This document shows positions 14,269-31,677 of a stretch of DNA of 64,000 nucleotides, in pieces (within the stretch, counting starts at the first letter, position 1; each line of letters opens with the position of its first letter). A model generated the notes under the pieces. That model had not been told where the DNA came from. It saw nothing but the letters and a program-made list of their open reading frames with translations, and searched no databases. Where the stretch lies: the NCBI RefSeq assembly GCF_002564005.1, contig NZ_PDJG01000001.1, positions 372,001 to 436,000 of the forward strand, read 5' to 3'. This DNA is from Sanguibacter antarcticus. Lineage in GTDB: Bacteria; Actinomycetota; Actinomycetes; Actinomycetales; Cellulomonadaceae. The position numbers were made by a program, and so were the translations under genes.

Positions 14269-15465
14269 TCAGAGGACGGCGAACTGTGCATCCACATGAA
14301 CGACGCCGAGCGACCGTCCATCACCGTCGATGCTGAACTGGCCTGCCTCAGGCACCCTGTGGATCTCTTGCCCGCTGGCTGTCGTGAGGCCGACCTGGAC
14401 AGAATACTCACCCTCGCCGAGCTGGAGCGAGTCCAGGTGAACCTGGAACCGGCTCACTCCGTCGACCGTGATGCCCGTGGCACCGAGCAACATGGACGAC
14501 GTCGAGTAGATGGAGGTGCCGAGGGGAGTCGCGATCCCGATCTCGACGATGACGTCCGAGAGGTGCGCGTCCGTCTCGATCTGCATGGTCACGTACAGCC
14601 CCTCGCTGCGCGCCAGGACGGGGCGGCCTGACTGACCGGAGTCGGACTGGAGCGCGATACCGGTGAACCGTGCGCGGCCGACCCGTGTCTCCGACGACTC
14701 GGCTTCGTGGGCTCGGTCGCGTTCTTCCTGGCGTGCTTCTTCGAAGTCGGCGCGCAGGGACCGGAGGGCGACGCGGGGCAGGTCGTCGGTGACGATCCTG
14801 CCCTTCTCGAGGACGATGGCCCGGTCGCAGAACTCCGCGACCTGGTCGAGCCCGTGGGTGACGAGGACGATCGTCCGTCCTTCGGACTGGAACTCGCGGA
14901 TTCGCTCGAGGCACTTGCGCTGGAACGGCTCGTCGCCGACGGCGAGCACCTCGTCGACGAGAAGGATGTCCGGGTCGACATGGACGGCGACCGCGAAGGC
15001 GAGGCGGACGTACATGCCTGACGAGTAGAACTTGACCTGGGTGTCGATGAACTGCTCGATGCCCGAGAAGTTGACGATCGCGTCGAAGTGCTTGTCGGTC
15101 TGGGTCCGTGAGAGCCCGAGGATGGAGGCGTTGAGGTAGACGTTCTCCCGTCCCGTGAGGTCGGGGTGGAACCCGGCGCCGAGCTCGAGCAGCGCAGCGA
15201 GGCGTCCACGGATCTTCACGGAGCCGGTGTCCGGCTGGAGGATCCCCCCGATCATCTTGAGCAGGGTGCTCTTCCCCGAGCCGTTCGGGCCGATGAGGCC
15301 CACGGTCGTCCCTGACGCGATCTCCAGGCTGATGTCCTGGAGCGCCCAGAAGTCTTCGCGGTGCGCGCGCGAGCGACCGAAGTTCACGACGCGCTCTTTG
15401 AGCGACTTCTCCTTGCGGATGACGAAGTGCTTCGAGAGGTTCTCGACTTGTACGACGGTGGTCAT
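14269..15465 (-). CDS. wzt: Polysaccharide ABC exporter, ATP-binding subunit
   Basis: Energises export of a lipid-linked glycan across the membrane. The nucleotide-binding domain covers about residues 1-235, with Walker A GPNGSGKST, an LLVDEVLAVGD Walker B region, SSGMYVRLAFAVA in place of the canonical signature, and an H-loop VTHGLDQV. This is typical of Wzt/TagH/RfbE. Residues about 255-398 form a separate beta-rich C-terminal domain that in Wzt proteins binds the glycan's modified non-reducing end. Its ATG overlaps the permease stop by ATGA. The pairing with a capping-type methyltransferase gene at 7.4 kb suggests recognition of a methylated terminus. Confidence 0.93.
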   Translation of the reverse strand: MTTVVQVENLSKHFVIRKEKSLKERVVNFGRSRAHREDFWALQDISLEIASGTTVGLIGPNGSGKSTLLKMIGGILQPDTGSVKIRGRLAALLELGAGFHPDLTGRENVYLNASILGLSRTQTDKHFDAIVNFSGIEQFIDTQVKFYSSGMYVRLAFAVAVHVDPDILLVDEVLAVGDEPFQRKCLERIREFQSEGRTIVLVTHGLDQVAEFCDRAIVLEKGRIVTDDLPRVALRSLRADFEEARQEERDRAHEAESSETRVGRARFTGIALQSDSGQSGRPVLARSEGLYVTMQIETDAHLSDVIVEIGIATPLGTSIYSTSSMLLGATGITVDGVSRFQVHLDSLQLGEGEYSVQVGLTTASGQEIHRVPEAGQFSIDGDGRSLGVVHVDAQFAVL

Positions 15466-16370
15466 CACAGCTCCTGAGCGAAGTTGGCCTGCAGGCGGGC
15501 GAAGACCCGTTGGCACAGCCAGAGCAGGAGGACGCCGACGATGATCGCGATCCCCATGCGGGTGTACATGTCGTCGGGGAACGGCTTGGCGTCACCCGAG
15601 ACCCAGAAGGTCTTCTGGAACCCGAGGACCGCGAGGGTGATCGGGTTCGCGAGGTAGAGCTCGTGGAGCATGGTGCTCTTCACCTCGTCGGCGAACAGCT
15701 CCCAGGAGTAGACGACCGGCGAGACCCAGAAGAAGATCATGACGAAGATCTCGACGAGGTACTGGATGTCTCGCAGATAGACGTTCCACGCGCTGAGGAG
15801 GAGAGCGAGCGCCGTGCCGTAGAGCACGATGATCATCGTCGCGAGCACGAAGTATCCCCACCGGGTCCCGGTCGGGAAGTGCCCCAGGGCGACCGTGGCG
15901 AGGATGAGGATGACGAGCTGGATCCCGAAGTTGAAGAGAGCCGACCCGATCGCGCTGAGCGGGAAGATCTCGCGCGGGAGATAGACCTTCTTGACGAGCC
16001 CGGAGTTCGCGACGACGGAGCCGGTGCCCGCAGAGAGGGCCTCGGCAAAGAAGTTCCACGCAGTCAGGCCGGCGTAGATGAAGATCGCGAAGTCGGGGAT
16101 GTTGCGCGCCGCACCCATGAACTTGCCGAGGGCGATGTAGTAGATGAGGAGCATCGCGAGAGGGCGCATGAGCGTCCAGACGAAGCCGAGCGCGCTGTCT
16201 TTGTAGCGGGCCTTGAGCTCGCGCCGGATGAGCATGTCGAGCAGCTCGCGCTGCCCGAGGATGTCGGTGATCGAGGACCAGGTCCCGGACGCGAACCCGA
16301 GGCGCGGACCTGCGGTCCGCAGGGGCTGGGCTTCGAGCGCTGCGGCGCGGTCCTGCTGCGTGCTTGTCAT
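15465..16370 (-). CDS. wzm: Polysaccharide ABC exporter, permease subunit
   Basis: A 301-residue ABC-2 type permease with six predicted membrane spans and the family N-terminal segment LLDMLIRRELKARYKDSALG. VWTLMRPLAMLLIYYIALGK and a late NPITLAVLGFQKTFW match the Wzm/TagG/RfbA family. It forms the channel for the Wzt ATPase encoded immediately downstream (4-bp overlap). ATG 16370 has a GAAGGA ribosome site; the longer frame to 16424 lacks one. It is transcribed divergently from the large GT gene, and the spacer holds an inverted repeat next to a -10-like TATTGT. Confidence 0.95.
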   Translation of the reverse strand: MTSTQQDRAAALEAQPLRTAGPRLGFASGTWSSITDILGQRELLDMLIRRELKARYKDSALGFVWTLMRPLAMLLIYYIALGKFMGAARNIPDFAIFIYAGLTAWNFFAEALSAGTGSVVANSGLVKKVYLPREIFPLSAIGSALFNFGIQLVILILATVALGHFPTGTRWGYFVLATMIIVLYGTALALLLSAWNVYLRDIQYLVEIFVMIFFWVSPVVYSWELFADEVKSTMLHELYLANPITLAVLGFQKTFWVSGDAKPFPDDMYTRMGIAIIVGVLLLWLCQRVFARLQANFAQEL

Positions 16371-16422
16371 GGTGTCCTTCGCTATCGGCGTGGTCCCCGC
16401 ACAGGCGGAGGCAGCGAGAGTC

Positions 16423-16428
16423 ACAATA
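16423..16428 (-). promoter_or_regulatory. Candidate -10 element for wzm-wzt
   Basis: TATTGT on the minus strand, 53 nt before the wzm ATG and directly beside the 8-bp inverted repeat. No good -35 seen. Confidence 0.35.
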
Positions 16429-23454: not shown

Positions 23455-24388
23455 GCGCATCCTGCGGCTCGGCGCGACGCTCCTCGTCGTCGGGCTCGTC
23501 GCCTACCTCTTCGGGCGTGGCCTCGCGGACAACTGGGACGCCGCACGCGAGATCGACCTGTCCGTCAACGGGCTGAGCCTTCTCGCCGTGGTTCTCCTCG
23601 CCGCGTCGGTCGTCTCGTCCGGCCTGCTCTGGGGGTCGATGACCTCTGAGCTCGGCAACGTCCACATCGGACGAGCCGAGGCCGTGCGGGTGCACTGCGC
23701 GTCCTGGCTGCTCAAGTACGTCCCGGGCCAGGTCGGTTCTGTGGCCAACAAGATCCTGTGGGGCTCTGGTCGCGGAGTGTCCAAGACGCTCGTCGTCATC
23801 ACGTTCGTCTACGAGAACGTCTTCCTGCTGCTCGCGTCGACGATCCCGACCGTGGTGGTGCTCGTCCTCGACACGGGCGTCATCGGGGGAGACAGCCTCA
23901 CCGCGGTGCTTCCCGCGCTGCTCGCTCTCGTGCCGTTGCTCCTCGTGATGGACCGCCGCATCTTCCGCTGGGCGATCAACCTCGTCGGGCGACGCGCCCT
24001 GAAGAAGGACGTCCCGCCCGAGTACTTCCTGGGACCTCGGGCTGCTGCGAAGTTCCAGCTCCAGTTCGTCGTTCCTCGGATCCTCAACGCCGCCGGCTTC
24101 ATCGCGGTGGCTGAGTCGTTCCTCACGATCGAGACGAGCGAGTGGCTCGCGCTGGGCTGCATCTACGTCCTCGCGGGCGCCGTCGGCATCCTTGCGGTGC
24201 TGGTCCCGAGCGGGATCGGCGTCCGCGAGTCGGTGATCGTCCTGCTCGCCTCGAGATATATGCCTGTCGAGCAGGCGATCGTTCTGTCGCTCGTCGCACG
24301 TCTGTACTCCACCGTCGCGGACGCTGCGGTAGCTGCGATCTACGGCACCTTGAAGTTCCGCGAATCGAAGAAGGGGCGTTCGGAATGA
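23444..24388 (+). CDS. UPF0104 / lysylphosphatidylglycerol-synthase-TM-like membrane protein, 314 aa
   Basis: An integral membrane protein with about eight spans. It resembles the flippase-like UPF0104 family: an early ILRLGATLLVVGLVAYLFG helix, the motif LLKYVPGQVGSVANKILWG (PG.V loop), and the late VLVPSGIGVRESVIVLLAS, both hallmarks of the family. Such proteins are thought to move lipids or lipid-linked sugars. TTG 23444 lies inside the 3' end of the nitroreductase gene (11-bp overlap) and gives the natural N-terminus. It could flip the product of the 21.3 kb GT2 enzyme; that is inference. Confidence 0.82.
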   Translation: MSRKRILRLGATLLVVGLVAYLFGRGLADNWDAAREIDLSVNGLSLLAVVLLAASVVSSGLLWGSMTSELGNVHIGRAEAVRVHCASWLLKYVPGQVGSVANKILWGSGRGVSKTLVVITFVYENVFLLLASTIPTVVVLVLDTGVIGGDSLTAVLPALLALVPLLLVMDRRIFRWAINLVGRRALKKDVPPEYFLGPRAAAKFQLQFVVPRILNAAGFIAVAESFLTIETSEWLALGCIYVLAGAVGILAVLVPSGIGVRESVIVLLASRYMPVEQAIVLSLVARLYSTVADAAVAAIYGTLKFRESKKGRSE

Positions 24389-25617
24389 AGTACGCAATCA
24401 TCGGGTCAGCACTCGCCGGCAACAAGGGGGCTGCGGCGATGCTGGAGAGCGCTGTGCAGCAGCTTTCTGAGAGAGACGCTGACGCGCGCGTGACGCTCTT
24501 GAGCATGTACCCGCGGTCTGACGCGGCTCAGAACGAGTACTCGAACCTCACGGTGCTCGATGCGTCTCCGCTGCGTCTCGGTGTGCTCATCAACTCGGCG
24601 GCGCTGGCCTACCGCCTGCTCCCGCCGGCCCGCGCTGCGATCGCGGCCCGCGTCCCTGAGGTCGCGGCGCTCGCCTCCGCGGACGTCTTGCTCGACCAGG
24701 GCGGGATCACGTTCGTGGACGGTCGCGGCAAGTTCCTCATCTACAACGTCGCGTCTGTCCTTCCTGCGTTGTTCGTGGGGACCCCGGTGGTCAAGTGCGC
24801 TCAGGCTCTCGGGCCGTTCAAGACGTTCCTGAACAGCACGGCGGCCAAGGCGATCTTGCCGCGCATGGCGGCCATCGTCTCGCGCGGTGCGGTCAGCCAG
24901 GAGCACCTCGAGGGCCTGGGGCTGAAGAACACGACGGCGGGCGCGGACCTCGCGTTCACGCTCGACGTCACCGAGCGGGACATCGCTGCGGCGCGTTCCG
25001 CGGTCGACGTCACCTTCTTCGACGGCAACGACGTCATCGGCATCTCACCGAGCGCGGTCTTGCGCAAGTCGGCCGAAGCGAAGGGTGGCAACTACGTCGC
25101 GGAGGTCCAGCGCATGGTGGACTACTTCACCGGGGTGCTGGGCAAGAAGGTCTTCCTCGTCGCGCACAGCGCGCGTGCAAACACGGACAAGGCGCACAAC
25201 AACGACCTGCCGTTGTGCCGGGAGATCTATGCCGGCGTCGAGCGCAAGGACATGGTCCTGTTCCCGGACGCAGAGCTGAGCTCGCAGTCGCTGCGCTACC
25301 TCATCGGGCGGTGCGACCTGTTCGTGGCCTCGCGCTTCCACGCGATGGTCTCGTCGCTCGCGATGCAGGTGCCGACGCTCGTCATCGGGTGGAGCCACAA
25401 GTACCGCGAGGTGCTCGACATGTTCGGGCTCGCCCAGTGGGCGATGGGGCACGACGTCTATACGGATGACGCGTTCCAGGCGAAGTTCGCCGAGCTCGCT
25501 GCGACCAAGACCGACGTGCGAGCAACCCTCGCCGAAGCGTTCCCGCGGGTCCGCGCCACGGCCCTCGAGCAGGTTGACGTGATCCTCCGCGTGGCCTCCG
25601 GGGCACGCAAGGCCTGA
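24385..25617 (+). CDS. Polysaccharide pyruvyl transferase family protein, 410 aa
   Basis: Members of this family (WcaK, CsaB, PvgA) move the enolpyruvyl group from PEP to sugars to form a pyruvate ketal on the exported or growing glycan. Seen here are AIIGSALAGNKGAAAMLESA at the N-terminus, VLLDQGGITFVDGRGKF, the family FVASRFHAMVSSLAMQVPT near residue 315, and VIGWSHKYREVL. ATG 24385 overlaps the upstream stop by 4 bp. Pyruvylated wall polymers can be ligands for S-layer-type proteins; no SLH domain occurs in the window. It is the last gene of this operon, followed by a strong hairpin. Confidence 0.9.
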   Translation: MKYAIIGSALAGNKGAAAMLESAVQQLSERDADARVTLLSMYPRSDAAQNEYSNLTVLDASPLRLGVLINSAALAYRLLPPARAAIAARVPEVAALASADVLLDQGGITFVDGRGKFLIYNVASVLPALFVGTPVVKCAQALGPFKTFLNSTAAKAILPRMAAIVSRGAVSQEHLEGLGLKNTTAGADLAFTLDVTERDIAAARSAVDVTFFDGNDVIGISPSAVLRKSAEAKGGNYVAEVQRMVDYFTGVLGKKVFLVAHSARANTDKAHNNDLPLCREIYAGVERKDMVLFPDAELSSQSLRYLIGRCDLFVASRFHAMVSSLAMQVPTLVIGWSHKYREVLDMFGLAQWAMGHDVYTDDAFQAKFAELAATKTDVRATLAEAFPRVRATALEQVDVILRVASGARKA

Positions 25618-25717: not shown

Positions 25718-28117
25718 TCAGGAGACCGTGACTGTCTCGCATCCAAGAGTTGGATTGCCTGTGCCTCGCGGTGAGCCGATGACGTAGAGGCACACCTGGG
25801 CAGTCCCCTTCGATGCAGCGAACGTCTTGGAGAAGCCGTGGTTCGCCCCGACGCCGTAGGCCTTGTCGACGTCGGTACGGCTCGCGTCGGCCTTGACCGA
25901 TCCGACGAGCGAGCTGCCGACGTAGACGTGCACGTCGACGGCGCTCGTGGTGTCGAGGTCGAACGCCCAGCCACGCACGCTCACGGTTCCGGACCCGGTC
26001 GTGATCGAGTCGACGACGCCCGTAGCGGCCGTGTTCGGCACCTCGACGTCGTTGCAGCCCAGCTCAACGACGTCCCGCGTGTCAGGGTCGCGGGCCAGGA
26101 CGCACGCCTGGTGGTCTCCCTGGCTGACGGGTGCCGTGAGCGTGAACCCGGTGGTCCCGGCGCCAGCAACCTCAGTGGTCGTCTGGACTGCCGACTGGGT
26201 GACCCCGTCGACCTGCAGCCAGACGTCGACCTTCGCCGTCGTGTCGAAGTCCGACGCCCACCCGACGACCTTGAGCGACGAACCCTGCGCGGCCGTGCCG
26301 CCACCGCCGACCATGGCAGGGACGCCCTCGGCGGAGGACACCGCACCCGTCGGCAGAGAGTTCGCGACGGTCACCGTCCGGCAGCCCAGGTACGGGTTTG
26401 CGCCACGCGACGTATCGATCGCGTAGAAGCAGACCGAGTGGTCACCGCGTGTGACGGGGATCGTGGCGTCGAAGCCGTGGCTGCTCCCGACGCCATAGGC
26501 ACGCGCGACGTCGGACCGCGGGCTGTTCGCCGTGATGATGCTCGTGCGCTTCCCGTCGACGTAGACGTGCACGGAGACGGCGTCAGACGAGTCGGGGTCG
26601 AACACCCACCCGCGGACCTTCACGGATCCCGGCGCCGGAGAGGTCACAGCGTCGATGTTCCCCTTCGGCGGCAGGTTCGTGACAGTCACCGTCTTGCACC
26701 CGATGAGCGGGTTGCCGCCGCTCGGGACGTTGATCGCGTATGCGCACACGGTGTGCTTGCCGTCGCTCGCGGGAACCGTTGCCGAGAACCCGTGGTTCGA
26801 GCTCACGCCGTACGCCCGGCCGACGTCTGAGCGTGACGACGACGCCTTGACCGACTTCACCGACTTCCCGTCGACGTACATGTGGACGTCGATCGCTTCC
26901 GAGGTGTCGGGGTCGAACGCCCATCCGCGGACCGCGATACCGCCCGGGGTCCCGGTCGCGGAGTCGAGCGTGCCCTTCGGGGTCAGGTTCGTCACCGACA
27001 CGGTCGTGCACCCGAGACTCGAGTTCCCCGACGTCGAGTCGAGCGCGTACGCGCACACCGTGTGGGTGCCGGTCGACGTCGTGATCGTCGTATCAAATCC
27101 GTGGGCGTTCCCCAGGCCGTACACGGCACCGACGTCCGGCCGGCTCGTGGACGCCTTCGTCGCGCGGACCGCGACGCCGTCCACGTAGACGTGGACGTTG
27201 ATGGAGGCCGTGGTGTCAGGGTCGAGCGCCCACCCCCGGACCGAGACGGTCCCGGTGCCCGCGTCTGACGTGACGGAGTCGATGACACCGACAGGAGTGC
27301 GGTTCACCGGCCCGCCGAACCATGCCGAGAAGTAGAGGTGGAAGTTGCGGTTCCCGTACGAGGAGCACGAGTCGCCGCTCCCGTAGCCGGCGGCGAGCGC
27401 TGCGGCGTTCGGACGGTACGGGGTGTAGTTGTAGAGGCTGGCGGTCGCCTGGTTCTCGATGTACACGCCCGACGTGCCGCACGCCGTGTTCGGGTGGTAC
27501 TGCACGGTGTTGGTGCGGCTGGCCCGGTAGGAGTAGCTCGTCGGGTTGGCTGCGTACCGCTTGAGCTGCTTGGCTGCGGAGTACACCTGGTTGGCGAAGC
27601 CCGCATAGGTCGGGTCGCACCAGCCGCCGACGTTGTCGGGGCACCCGAAGCCGAGTGCGCGCGAGTACGTGTACGAGGTCTTGCCAGCCGTCGAGGTGAT
27701 GAGGCCCTGCTCCTTCTGGAGCGTGACGAGCAGCACCTGAGGGTTGATACCGCAGGCGACCGACACCTTGTAGATGATCGAGGCAGCAGACTCGTTCGAG
27801 GCGCCGGCGTACGAGCGCGGGCACAGCGAGTCCGCGGTGCGGCTCGGCGTCGTCTCGCGGTAGCTCTTGATGCACGTGCTCCCGGACGCAGGGGAGCAGT
27901 ACGCGCCCTTGGCATCGAGGAACGTCTGGACCGACGACGAGCTCATCGTGCCCGTGTCGTACATCACCGCGTCGCTGATGATGTAGCCAGGGTCGAAGTC
28001 CGTGACCGCAGCGCTGTGCGCAACAGGCGCGACGAGGAGCTGGAACCCGGCGAGGACGCCGGCACAGAGTGCCAGGGCGAGCGAGACGCCGATCGGGCGT
28101 CGGGCACTCAAGATCAC
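25718..28117 (-). CDS. Secreted lysozyme-like protein with five ~100-residue repeats, 799 aa
   Basis: An N-terminal signal peptide (about 1-36, ending AHSA) is followed by a Cys-rich domain (about 36-265) with INPQVLLVTLQKEQGL and LGFGCPDNVGGWCD. That region resembles a lysozyme or glucosaminidase fold with a possible catalytic Glu in QKEQ. Five repeats follow (about 272-799) with the pattern VRGWAxDPDT...VHVYVDG...SRSDV...AYG...HGF...HTVCAYA...GC.TV; the fourth is diverged. The same repeat occurs in the divergent amidase. Two cysteines per repeat likely form a disulfide. It overlaps its upstream gene by 4 bp. It is probably a wall-binding muralytic enzyme; activity is inferred only. Confidence 0.75.
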   Translation of the reverse strand: MILSARRPIGVSLALALCAGVLAGFQLLVAPVAHSAAVTDFDPGYIISDAVMYDTGTMSSSSVQTFLDAKGAYCSPASGSTCIKSYRETTPSRTADSLCPRSYAGASNESAASIIYKVSVACGINPQVLLVTLQKEQGLITSTAGKTSYTYSRALGFGCPDNVGGWCDPTYAGFANQVYSAAKQLKRYAANPTSYSYRASRTNTVQYHPNTACGTSGVYIENQATASLYNYTPYRPNAAALAAGYGSGDSCSSYGNRNFHLYFSAWFGGPVNRTPVGVIDSVTSDAGTGTVSVRGWALDPDTTASINVHVYVDGVAVRATKASTSRPDVGAVYGLGNAHGFDTTITTSTGTHTVCAYALDSTSGNSSLGCTTVSVTNLTPKGTLDSATGTPGGIAVRGWAFDPDTSEAIDVHMYVDGKSVKSVKASSSRSDVGRAYGVSSNHGFSATVPASDGKHTVCAYAINVPSGGNPLIGCKTVTVTNLPPKGNIDAVTSPAPGSVKVRGWVFDPDSSDAVSVHVYVDGKRTSIITANSPRSDVARAYGVGSSHGFDATIPVTRGDHSVCFYAIDTSRGANPYLGCRTVTVANSLPTGAVSSAEGVPAMVGGGGTAAQGSSLKVVGWASDFDTTAKVDVWLQVDGVTQSAVQTTTEVAGAGTTGFTLTAPVSQGDHQACVLARDPDTRDVVELGCNDVEVPNTAATGVVDSITTGSGTVSVRGWAFDLDTTSAVDVHVYVGSSLVGSVKADASRTDVDKAYGVGANHGFSKTFAASKGTAQVCLYVIGSPRGTGNPTLGCETVTVS
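25721..27300 (-). repeat. Array of five ~100-residue protein repeats
   Basis: In coding frame the repeats begin about every 300-325 bp and share GWAxDPDT, VHVYVDG, AYG...HGF and a VCxYA...GC Cys pair. Repeat 4 (about 26020-26345) is diverged and lacks the VHVYVDG form. Confidence 0.8.
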
Positions 28118-28707
28118 GGAACTACCACCTCAACAGGGTCTGACTTGCCGGAAGACGCGGCCGAGCTATAGGTAACGACAGCCGTCCAGGTACCAGTCGA
28201 CAGCTCGGCCCCGGGAATGAGGAATCCACCGCAGCTCATCGTGCTCACGTCGACGAGCGCATCGAGGGTCGCTGTCCGGACCGTGCTGCCGGACGTCAGG
28301 GTGAGGGTGCAGGTCCCAGCCGACTCGATGGTCGCGGCGTACGCACCGACCTCGACGCCGTTGGTCTCCGGCGCCCAGCTGGCATAGGTCGTCACTACGT
28401 TGACCGTGCCGCCCGGCGGCTTCGTGGGCTGTGCCGTGGGCTCGGTGTCAGGGCCGTTCGTGACAGCCGGCTCGCTCGGCTCGGGCGGCGCGGTCTCGGT
28501 CGGGCTCGTCGTCGCGGGGTCGGTGCCTGCGGGCGGCGACGGCTCGTCGGTCGCGGTCTCTGACGGGTCCGACGTCGACGGGTCGGCTGCAGCCGAGGTG
28601 GAGCTCGTCGAGAACGGCCACCAGCCGGCTGTGCGCGCGAGGACCGCCCCGGCTCCGAGCAGGACGACGACGACAAGGGTCACGATGATCGCTTTACGGT
28701 GGCGCAT
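28114..28707 (-). CDS. Membrane-anchored extracytoplasmic protein, 197 aa
   Basis: A basic start MRHRKAI and a single TM helix (about 6-25, IIVTLVVVVLLGAGAVL) anchor the protein. A Pro/Ser/Thr/Glu-rich linker (about 35-100) follows, typical of wall-spanning segments. The C-terminal ~95 residues form a compact extracellular domain with two cysteines, likely beta-rich. The stop overlaps the start of the repeat-protein gene (ATGA), so the two are co-expressed and may act together at the wall. No family was recognised and the function is unknown. ATG 28707 is taken because the upstream frame lies in the divergent promoter. Confidence 0.7.
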   Translation of the reverse strand: MRHRKAIIVTLVVVVLLGAGAVLARTAGWWPFSTSSTSAAADPSTSDPSETATDEPSPPAGTDPATTSPTETAPPEPSEPAVTNGPDTEPTAQPTKPPGGTVNVVTTYASWAPETNGVEVGAYAATIESAGTCTLTLTSGSTVRTATLDALVDVSTMSCGGFLIPGAELSTGTWTAVVTYSSAASSGKSDPVEVVVP

Positions 28708-28823
28708 GGTCCTCGATCTGAGAGATTCGACGGGTACAGCGGCGACCGTACCAACGCTTCGTGGCAAGAACGTGGAGGCAAGAACCACCCGCGCGCCGCC
28801 GTCTTCCCGGCGGTTCTCGGGGC

Positions 28824-28829
28824 TAGCCT
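28824..28829 (+). promoter_or_regulatory. -10-like TAGCCT upstream of the amidase
   Basis: Ends 7 nt before ATG 28837, which could make that codon a leaderless start. ATG 28852 downstream instead has a GGGGGGA ribosome site, so the choice of start is open. Confidence 0.35.
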
Positions 28830-28851
28830 GAGCCGCATGGGGGGAAAATCT

Positions 28852-31677
28852 ATGCGCGCAGTGACCGGTTCTGTGACATCTGTGGTGCTCGTCTGGGGGT
28901 TGCTCGCGACGGCGCCGAGCGTCGCGGCGGCGAGTCCGGCCGTCGTCTCGGACGTGGCCCAAGACACGTCGTCCGAGGTAGACGTCGTCGAGCTCGACCT
29001 CACGGGGATCGATCCGGGGGCCTCCGCGGAGATCACCGAGGCAGACGAGGTGCTGCCTGACACTGTCGCACCAGGTGTCGACCCGGACACGGTTCCGGGG
29101 CTCGAGGTCGAGGATCCGCTGGGCGCGTTGCCCGACACCGCCACGACCGACGTCCTCACCGAGCAGATGACGGTCGACCCGTTCAGCGTCATGGGGATCT
29201 CCTGGGACCTCGACCTGGGGCTCGAGGACGTCGTGGTCCAGTACCGGACGTTCCGTGAGGGGGCATGGACCGACTGGGGCTGGGTAGCACCGGCCGAGCC
29301 GTACATCGACGAGGCCGCCGGTGACGAGCCGTCCACGAGAGGCGCGACCGACGCGATCTTCGTCCCCGACTCGACCGGGGTCCAGCTCATCGTGTCCTCG
29401 ACCGCCGGGACGGCCCAGAACGTCAAGGTCGTCCTCATCGACCCAGGTGCAGGGCCGAGCGGCGACGAGGCGAGCACCAGCTCGGGGACGCCGACGCCCG
29501 CTCCGGTTCCCACCGCGGCAGACGTCGCGACAGACGAGCCCGCGGAGTCCGCGGACGACGCCGCCACGGCGACCACGCCTCCGACCGACGAGGCCGCCAC
29601 CGAGTCTCCTGAGCCGTTCGAGACTCCTGAGCCGGCCGAGACGCAGGAGCCGAGCGCTCCCGCGGAGGAGACCACCGCTCCGGGTGTTCCGGTGGAGGAA
29701 CCGGCCACGGTCGTCTCGCCCACCAGCGTGAGCGTCGACGGCCCCGTCGTCGGCGAACAGTCGTCGTCAGCAATCACGGTGCCTGCCGCCTACATGCCGA
29801 ACCTCGTGCTCCCGGCGGCGACGATGGCCCAGCCCGCGATCGTCACCCGAGCGCAGTGGGGCGCGCCTGCGCCCGTGTGCTCCGGCGGCTACGGGTCGTC
29901 GACGCTGGCCGCCGCGGTGCACCACACCGCATCGTCCAACTCCTACACAGCCGCTCAGGTGCCTGGCCTGCTGCGAGGCATCGCCGAGTACCACACGCGC
30001 CCAGAGGCGTCCGGTGGCCGTGGCTGGTGCGACGTGGGCTACAACTTCCTCGTCGACAAGTTCGGGACCATCTACGAGGGCCGCGCCGGCGGGATCGACC
30101 AGCCCGTGCTCGGCATCCACACCGGGGGATTCAACTCGCGTGTCATCGGCGTCTCGGCCATCGGCAACTATCAGGACGCCTCGGTCAGCGCGGCGATGGC
30201 CGAGGCGATCAGCCAGGTCATCGCGTGGAAGTTCGCCCAGCACCGCATCATGGCCAACACGTCCGTGACGCTCGTGTCAGGCGGTGGAGCGTCGAAGTAC
30301 CCGGAAGGGACCTCGGTCACCTTCAGCACGATCTTCGGTCACCGCGACGCCCAGCTGACGTCGTGCCCCGGGCAGTACCTCTACGCCCTCCTCGGCGACA
30401 TTCGCAACCGGGTCGCCCAGCTCTCGAACGCCGTGGTGGCCGAGTCCCCGCAGGGGGCGTGGGACCTCGCACAAGGCGGCGGCAGCAGCGTCCGGGTCGC
30501 CGGATGGGCGACCGACCCGAGCACCTCGGGTGCGGTCCTGGTCCAGGTGCTCATCGACGGCACCCTCACACGGAGCTTCGCCGCTGACAAGGTGCGCTCG
30601 GACGTCGGGGCGCACAGCTACGACACGAGCGTCACGATGTCCGCCGGGTCGCACACGGTCTGCGTGCGCTACATCAACCAGGGTGGTGGGTCGGACGTCC
30701 ACATGGGCTGCCGGACCATCACGGCTCTGCCGTCCAACCCCGTCGGCGTCATCGACGGGACGAGCGTCACAGCCAGCTCGATCACCGTGCGCGGCTGGGC
30801 GCGCGACCCTGACTCGACGAGCCCGATCACGGTGCACGTGTACGTCGACGGCAAGGCGGTCGCTGCGGAACGGGCGGACGAGCCGCGTGCCGACGTCCAG
30901 GCCTCGGCCCCCGACGAGGCCGGGCCCAACCACGGCTTCCAGCGGACCGTCTCGGCGAACGGTGGCAAACACACCGTGTGCGTCTACGGGATCAACGTCG
31001 GGGCCGGGGCAAACACCAAGATCGGCTGCAAGGACGTCGTCGTACCGAACAAGATCCCTGTCGGCGTCATCGACGAGGCGACCGCCGTGGGCACAGACAG
31101 CATCTCGGTCCGCGGATGGGCGTTCGACCCGGACACCTCGAACCCGATCACAGTTCACGTGTACGTCGACGGCAAGTTTGCGGGCATCGTCGCAGCGGAC
31201 GACAACCGGTCCGACGTCGGGCGGGCGTACGGCAACGGCAGCGCGCACGGTTTCAGCACGGTCGTCCCGGCCACAGCGGGGACGCACACGGTGTGCGCGT
31301 ACGCGATCGACTCCCAGGGCGGCGGGAACCCGCGGTTCGACTGCACGAGCGTCACCGTGCGCAACGCGGCACCGATCGGCGTGATCGACCAGGTCACCGG
31401 CGGGTCGGGGACGGTCCGCGTCCGTGGTTGGGCGCTCGACCCCGACACCACGGCGTCCATCTCCGTGCACGTCTACGTCGATGGGAAGGCCGTCCGCTCG
31501 GTCCGTGCGTCCGCGAGCAGATCAGACATCGCTCGCGCCTATGGGCTCGGTGCCCTCCACGGCTTCGACACCGCGGTGCCGGTGAGCGCGGGGACGCACC
31601 AGGTCTGTGTCTATGCGATCAACGCGACCGCGGGCTCCAACCCGCACCTCGGCTGTCGGACGGCCACCGTGTCCTGA
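28852..31677 (+). CDS. Secreted N-acetylmuramoyl-L-alanine amidase (PGRP type) with C-terminal repeats, 941 aa
   Basis: Cleaves the MurNAc-L-Ala bond of peptidoglycan outside the cell. A signal peptide lies at about 1-27. Residues about 40-200 are a conserved actinobacterial N-terminal domain, and an acidic Pro/Thr/Glu linker runs to about 320. The amidase_2/PGRP domain spans about 329-525, with RAQWGAP, the zinc histidine in AVHHTASS, and FGHRDAQLTSCPG. Four ~100-residue repeats follow (first diverged), matching those of the divergent secreted protein. ATG 28852 has a strong GGGGGGA site; ATG 28837 (MGGKS...) could be a leaderless start. Likely remodels the wall where the glycan is attached. 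Confidence 0.92.
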   Translation: MRAVTGSVTSVVLVWGLLATAPSVAAASPAVVSDVAQDTSSEVDVVELDLTGIDPGASAEITEADEVLPDTVAPGVDPDTVPGLEVEDPLGALPDTATTDVLTEQMTVDPFSVMGISWDLDLGLEDVVVQYRTFREGAWTDWGWVAPAEPYIDEAAGDEPSTRGATDAIFVPDSTGVQLIVSSTAGTAQNVKVVLIDPGAGPSGDEASTSSGTPTPAPVPTAADVATDEPAESADDAATATTPPTDEAATESPEPFETPEPAETQEPSAPAEETTAPGVPVEEPATVVSPTSVSVDGPVVGEQSSSAITVPAAYMPNLVLPAATMAQPAIVTRAQWGAPAPVCSGGYGSSTLAAAVHHTASSNSYTAAQVPGLLRGIAEYHTRPEASGGRGWCDVGYNFLVDKFGTIYEGRAGGIDQPVLGIHTGGFNSRVIGVSAIGNYQDASVSAAMAEAISQVIAWKFAQHRIMANTSVTLVSGGGASKYPEGTSVTFSTIFGHRDAQLTSCPGQYLYALLGDIRNRVAQLSNAVVAESPQGAWDLAQGGGSSVRVAGWATDPSTSGAVLVQVLIDGTLTRSFAADKVRSDVGAHSYDTSVTMSAGSHTVCVRYINQGGGSDVHMGCRTITALPSNPVGVIDGTSVTASSITVRGWARDPDSTSPITVHVYVDGKAVAAERADEPRADVQASAPDEAGPNHGFQRTVSANGGKHTVCVYGINVGAGANTKIGCKDVVVPNKIPVGVIDEATAVGTDSISVRGWAFDPDTSNPITVHVYVDGKFAGIVAADDNRSDVGRAYGNGSAHGFSTVVPATAGTHTVCAYAIDSQGGGNPRFDCTSVTVRNAAPIGVIDQVTGGSGTVRVRGWALDPDTTASISVHVYVDGKAVRSVRASASRSDIARAYGLGALHGFDTAVPVSAGTHQVCVYAINATAGSNPHLGCRTATVS
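30430..31674 (+). repeat. Array of four ~100-residue protein repeats in the amidase
   Basis: Same repeat type as 25721-27300. The last copy is nearly identical in motif to the first one there (VRGWALDPDTTAS with VHVYVDG), suggesting recent exchange between the divergent genes. Confidence 0.8.

Follow-up and report, generated by a model that had tools for sequence, protein, structure and literature searches.

The window analysed here, a stretch of 64,000 nucleotides of the Sanguibacter antarcticus genome (contig NZ_PDJG01000001.1, positions 372,001 to 436,000), carries within a glycan locus three genes, called U, A and B, that code for a putative membrane protein, a lysozyme-like protein and a peptidoglycan recognition protein (PGRP)-type amidase, respectively. 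A and B end in tails made of the same repeat, and at related loci neighbouring A-type and PGRP proteins mostly have matching tails too, although the type of tail varies. We give an even chance to the proposal that U, A and B together serve as a wall-opening set dedicated to their locus, with a presumed activity, ligand and step. Computed here were the predicted fold of A with its conserved Glu, the membership of B in an amidase family, the coupling of U to A, the association with glycan loci and the matched tails. The features are as follows, in coordinates of the window and with the repeats delimited by repeat comparison.

25718-28117, minus strand: A, predicted secreted lysozyme-like protein of 799 residues with a GTG start, from the open reading frame (ORF) list; P0001 is an identical database copy
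27293-28012, minus strand: N-terminal domain of A, residues 36-275, with a lysozyme/GH73-like predicted fold and Glu136 as candidate catalytic acid
26987-27298, minus strand: A repeat 1
26675-26986, minus strand: A repeat 2, structure predicted (seven strands; predicted local distance difference test score, pLDDT, 97.4)
26357-26674, minus strand: A repeat 3
26036-26356, minus strand: A repeat 4, diverged (31-36% identity with the other A repeats)
25721-26035, minus strand: A repeat 5
28114-28707, minus strand: U, 197 residues, whose stop codon overlaps the GTG start of A by four bases (GTGA)
28708-28851: divergent gap between U and B, 144 bp by coordinates
28852-31677, plus strand: B, predicted secreted PGRP amidase of 941 residues; the ATG at 28852 fits P0190 (941 residues), and a longer ORF opens at 28699
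29914-30375, plus strand: PGRP/Amidase_2 domain of B, ORF residues 406-559 (PF01510, E 1.5e-15; best E 3.3e-18 to PGRPs of the PDB)
30433-30732, plus strand: B repeat 1, diverged
30733-31053, plus strand: B repeat 2
31054-31365, plus strand: B repeat 3
31366-31674, plus strand: B repeat 4, 64% identical to A repeat 1

The A protein consists of a signal-like N-terminus (read by eye), a domain of 240 residues and five repeats (residues 274-799). The N-terminal domain occurs once in the whole genome (3.52 Mb, single contig). Its AlphaFold2 model (pLDDT 95.2) has a lysozyme/GH73-like fold, and the ten best Foldseek matches comprise GH73 autolysins, LytB, a goose lysozyme, a lytic transglycosylase and a phage tail tip, with weak scores. 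Scores were also weak in the comparison with VIA, where wall- or chitin-cutting enzymes make up nearly all of the 50 matches listed, the SagB-SpdC structure 6u0o among them. Glu136 corresponds to residue 101 of the model and lies inside helix 91-102, at the helix end; in GH73 enzymes and lytic transglycosylases, the catalytic Glu is at a helix end too. It is kept in 320 of 323 related domains, in which other polar residues are conserved too. The preliminary description, made from the sequence alone, had staked its account on a muralytic-type fold in the N-terminal domain of the 25.7 kb protein, and the predicted fold is of that type. A is a candidate glycosidase of the lysozyme superfamily that would cut the glycan strands of peptidoglycan, as its predicted fold and conserved Glu suggest. 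The domain yielded no Pfam or NCBIfam family over the cut-off, and no glycosidase family was among the Pfam/NCBIfam matches of A at E <= 1, a range in which the HMMER filters remove most matches above 0.1. The family comprises 5325 database proteins at E <= 0.001; its closest named relatives are found in Sanguibacter, the loci of S. suaedae and S. gelidistatuariae included. Two distant relatives, P0022 and P0044, have the candidate Glu replaced, and P0022 has two N-domains.

B is composed of a linker region, the PGRP domain and four repeats (residues 579-992 of the ORF 28699-31677). The Amidase_2 profile scores 58.1 bits, for a cut-off of 26, and the sequence holds HHT, GHRD and SCPG motifs. 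The zinc ligands of T7 lysozyme and catalytic PGRPs are His, His and Cys; the zinc Cys is present in B and aligns to a Ser of PGRP-1, which we take to be non-catalytic. Judged from its sequence, B is a member of the zinc PGRP amidase family with the amidase residues kept, and amidase activity is predicted. In PHROGs, endolysin/amidase families match B over its amidase part, and the N-terminal domain of A, one repeat and U gave no match; a phage-lysis origin was rejected.

A and B had been described as a divergent pair. They do lie on opposite strands, but they are not direct neighbours: U sits between them and overlaps the start of A, so that the divergent gap is the one between U and B. U has a hydrophobic N-terminal segment, a Pro/Thr-rich stalk and a two-Cys domain of ~100 residues; the membrane segment and the Ig-like nature of the domain were read by eye. 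As far as the gene arrangement tells, U is translationally coupled to A.

Relatives were followed in a set of named loci, in 150 genomes from the same family as the window (f1) and in a second family (f43, that of G509), for whose choice alone a class-wide draw (27 of 393 genomes, the window's own included) was used. The named set was collected with a profile of the A N-terminal domain and holds 80 loci, the best of 442 confirmed ones; it overlaps with the genome draws at least for L009, L010, L011, L015, L016, L017, L018, L019, L023, L028 and L031. A-type genes were found in 50 of the 150 f1 genomes. They are single-copy in f1 and f43; two or three matches each occur in nine f5 genomes of the class-wide draw, G230, G250, G323, G332, G341, G414, G459, G487 and G514. 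The U profile matched once in each of 40 f1 genomes, all among the 50 A-positive and none among the 100 A-negative ones. By coordinates, U adjoins A in 38 of these 40, the exceptions being G085 (same contig, ~20 kb off) and G027 (different contig). Using an adjacency rule, U was found upstream of 44/82 named, 34/48 f1 and 32/33 f43 A-type ORFs, and six more U matches lie in A-type loci outside this rule, including the last f43 case (L186). None was detected in most Microbacteriaceae loci, by divergence or by absence. A role in anti-phage defence was also considered and rejected: PADLOC gave nothing for A and B, and U had a single match over residues 3-102 (18 bits, E 3.6e-4), set aside because it was judged to reflect low complexity.

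The preliminary description had reported one repeat of ~100 residues with two Cys, in four copies on the PGRP amidase and five on the lysozyme-like protein, and alignment confirms this. The nine repeats have ~104 residues, two Cys and a predicted beta-sandwich structure, for which the structure prediction of A repeat 2, a check proposed at that stage, serves as the model. Pairwise identities range from 27 to 64%, A4 and B1 being the most diverged, nine columns are invariant (G, V, G, W, D, V, G, C, C), and the best BLASTP E value from A to B is 4e-93. The tails of A and B gave no Pfam or NCBIfam family over the cut-off, and we discarded the idea of a known Pfam or NCBIfam repeat. PF17957, presumably an Ig-like family, is listed in the database on some relatives, with no match over the cut-off on the repeats of the window.

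Tails of A-type and PGRP proteins were compared by BLASTP, a match in f1 being homology at E < 1e-6. Only genomes with both genes fetched entered the pair counts; a PGRP gene was present in 41 of the 50 A-positive f1 genomes and 34 of the 68 in f43, some of them without a pair on the same stretch. Near pairs were those within 10.5 kb, a cut-off chosen after part of the tails had been read. The tails matched in 16 of 17 near f1 pairs, versus 2 of 19 farther pairs of the same genome, 36 of 113 pairings with another genome of the same genus and 194 of 1219 pairings with other genera. When partners were shuffled 20,000 times, 16 matches were never reached (mean 6.7, maximum 15). The own partner had the closest PGRP tail in just 7 of the 17 pairs, that of the window ranking fourth; thus, the match is one of tail type and only sometimes of exact sequence. 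In f43, tails matched for 23 of the 24 near pairs, for 4 of 5 pairs separated by 11.7-13.1 kb and for 2 of 7 pairs outside one stretch. The background from swapped partners is high in that family, with matches in 213 of 300 pairings inside a genus and in 503 of 852 between genera, and shuffled partners attained the observed 23 at a rate of 0.00055. All same-locus pairs together, including an unmatched pair of G121 left out of the near f1 count at 10.7 kb, matched in 43 of 47 cases, against 33.8 on average and 42 at most in 20,000 shuffles within genera, a control for relatedness. This within-genus signal stems from five genera, with own and swapped pairs matching in 5/6 vs 16/30 (g20), 3/3 vs 1/6 (g9), 3/3 vs 0/6 (g10), 8/9 vs 28/72 (g153) and 1/2 vs 1/2 (g152) cases. 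Genera in which all swaps match (g148, g145, g1) or with one pair each (g8, g17, g19, g155) are uninformative. A same-genus genome (G019) has its A-type gene split over two frames (L116), which was dropped from the pair counts.

The tail types found on A-type/amidase pairs include the repeat of the window, LGFP, DUF4214 and others. Thus, modules of different sequence families, such as LGFP (PF08310; the repeat is covered in PMC2447325, available to us in part) and DUF4214 (PF13946), replace the window's repeat on both pair members elsewhere. In genus g153, four pairs in which both proteins carry the window's repeat coexist with four in which both have LGFP motifs; in f43, LGFP was called by an in-house motif count, with confirmation by Pfam in L088 only. 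DUF4214 occurs on both proteins of G148 and, by sequence likeness, of G063. Tails are nearly identical within some pairs (G148, 100% over 208 residues; G063, 94% over 199 residues; G598, 88%; G509, 86%), so that copying between both genes is part of their history. Among the named loci with a PGRP gene, tails match in 15 of 15, partly by eye (L052, L086); L018 has one repeat only in common, and the tails of L086 are without Pfam match. The earlier suggestion of a common ligand and of joint action by both enzymes is partly borne out: matched tails across changing types lend it support, as do the predicted fold of A and the residues of B. These data suggest that enzymes of the same locus work as a pair at one place of the wall.

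The preliminary description had placed the pair within a glycan locus, in agreement with the flanks of A and B, where Wzm, Wzt, GT2/GT4, nucleotide-sugar and pyruvyl-transferase genes are found. Two of these features were located as follows.

14269-16424, minus strand: Wzt and Wzm glycan ABC exporter genes (PF14524, PF00005, PF01061)
24373-25617, plus strand: polysaccharide pyruvyl transferase gene directly beside A (PF04230)

The window has no Rfam family over the gathering score and no tRNA. For the comparison across loci, the 59 named loci with at least 20 kb of sequence were counted and the 21 shorter ones left out. Controls were 20 stretches of 20 kb, ~1 Mb from an A-type gene, in 20 genomes of f1 and f43, the genome of the window among them, and came from other genomes than the named set. 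Of the 59 named loci, 54 contain one or more counted glycan families, compared with 1 of the 20 controls, a count that omits nitroreductase-like and MP_31826-like matches and also Wzt-like ABC ATPases, because the latter match 5 of the 20 controls. At least three such families were found in 49/59 vs 0/20, and Wzm in 33/59 vs 0/20. Within f1, a Wzm gene starts at most 20 kb from the A-type gene in 31 of the 50 A-positive genomes; anywhere in the genome, Wzm was found in 38 of these 50 vs 42 of the 100 A-negative ones. A-type genes thus are part of such loci yet dispensable for them. A pyruvylated glycan as general tail ligand was rejected, a relative of the window's pyruvyl-transferase gene being the best call in 1 of 59 named loci.

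The repeat occurs in 31 of the 150 f1 genomes, in 25 of the 50 A-positive vs 6 of the 100 A-negative ones. A search for it at other actinobacterial glycan loci had been proposed, and in 24 of the 25 repeat-bearing A-positive genomes it is on the A-type protein itself; the last, G029, was not assessable because its gene runs off the contig. Several observations weigh against a tie of the repeat to this locus and its polymer. A secreted S8 protease (subtilase) with three repeat copies is encoded 2 Mb away in the same genome (C1:2407136-2409748, L008:7137-9749), and with this third carrier the idea of a repeat confined to the glycan locus was dropped. The repeat was also found on S1-like proteases in G067 and G147 and on an S8-like protease beside A in G086 (heads assigned by eye), on database proteins with GH25, SpoIID or deacetylase domains (precomputed Pfam), and in the six genomes without an A-type gene counted above. 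That the tails bind this locus's polymer and that the enzymes act where it is attached, as the preliminary description had suggested, is conjectural. As the repeat tracks A-positive genomes and sits on several enzymes, it looks like a surface address shared by several exported enzymes in strains with an A-type locus. In Cellulomonas cellasea, the gene immediately downstream of the A-type gene codes for an S8-like protease that bears the repeat (L156:5071-7056 and L028:12056-14041, one locus).

According to the mechanism that we propose, A would cut the glycan strands of peptidoglycan and B the stem peptides, U would hold or position A at the membrane through a putative U-A contact, and the like tails would hold both enzymes at one wall address. 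The wall would be opened or trimmed where the exported polymer of the locus passes or is joined, a presumptive step. A broader version, which we put forward tentatively and with some doubt, is that actinobacterial polysaccharide loci encode an undescribed machine made of membrane protein U, lysozyme-like A and often PGRP B, with an exchangeable C-terminal tag that has to be the same on both enzymes and goes with the strain's surface polymer.

It might be argued that A and B are ordinary autolysins for cell separation or turnover that use the polymer as a handle and have no role in making or attaching it, their genes being kept in the locus by the need for tail and ligand to change in step. The presence of the repeat on proteases with no evident role in polymer assembly, the change of tail types while the heads stay, and the frequency of A-type loci without PGRP on the available stretch (65 of 80 named loci) are consistent with that view. 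Nevertheless, the coupling of U to A and their strict co-occurrence suggest a dedicated device, and 100 of the 150 family genomes have no A-type match, hence divide without A. We regard the autolysin explanation as unlikely, though a serious competitor. It is improbable, in our view, that the tails match just because the genes are neighbours, through exchange of tail DNA or co-travel without selection for a common ligand. The near-identical tails of G148, G063, G598 and G509, as from recent copying, and the scarcity of matches in farther f1 pairs of the same genome point that way. However, the heads are unrelated, so that for a new tail type to spread between the genes, domains would have to be replaced in several lineages. 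Matched pairs also occur 11.7-13.1 kb apart and on opposite strands (G615, G617, G614), and in 10 of 17 f1 pairs a tail other than that of the own partner is the closest.

Cutting by B alone, with the A N-terminal domain an inactive binding or scaffolding derivative of the fold, would fit the weak fold scores, the lack of Pfam, NCBIfam and PHROGs matches reported above, and the replacement of the candidate Glu in 3 of 323 domains. The position of this Glu at a helix end, its retention in all other domains and the conservation of other polar residues argue against an inactive A, which we find quite improbable.

The wall-opening set proposed here has relatives in part. Among PGRP-type Amidase_2 (PF01510) amidases, Rv3811, which we take to be encoded beside arabinogalactan genes, is like B in its catalytic domain. 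In the available part of PMC3987819, Rv3811 is the mycobacterial Amidase_2 protein Ami3; in contrast with Ami3, the repeat tail and the same-tailed lysozyme-like neighbour are features of B. The GH73 glucosaminidases AtlE, LytB and SagB resemble the A N-terminal domain in predicted fold but have no sequence-profile match, and the association with glycan loci distinguishes A from them. According to the accessible part of PMC10581084, SagB is scaffolded by the membrane protein SpdC for glycan-strand cutting. U might serve A likewise, although it is unlike SpdC, a CAAX-protease homologue in that source. The nearest described idea concerns the enzymes CslZ and LpmP from Streptomyces coelicolor, which both act on the wall and are proposed to open a path for an apical glycan across the peptidoglycan, with cslZ divergent within the glycan gene cluster (PMC9040799, as far as available). 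Those enzymes are a GH6 glucanase and a lytic polysaccharide monooxygenase, unlike the lysozyme-like protein and PGRP amidase described here; A, B and U are not members of their families, and the accessible part of that source mentions no shared tails. The literature searched (full text, mostly outside subscription journals) gave no account of the A/B pair, of matched tails or of U. Thus, the kinds of components are known, and their combination, the matched tails and the families of U and of the A N-terminal domain are without description in that literature.

These analyses add two protein families that are absent from every library searched, the A N-terminal domain and U. To our knowledge, the way in which large glycopolymers cross the thick wall of many actinobacteria and become attached to it is poorly understood. 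The gene set ties glycan loci to two different predicted wall-cutting activities and makes the question of passage testable. The natural swaps of tags across species mean that the tags would predict which pairs have a common target.
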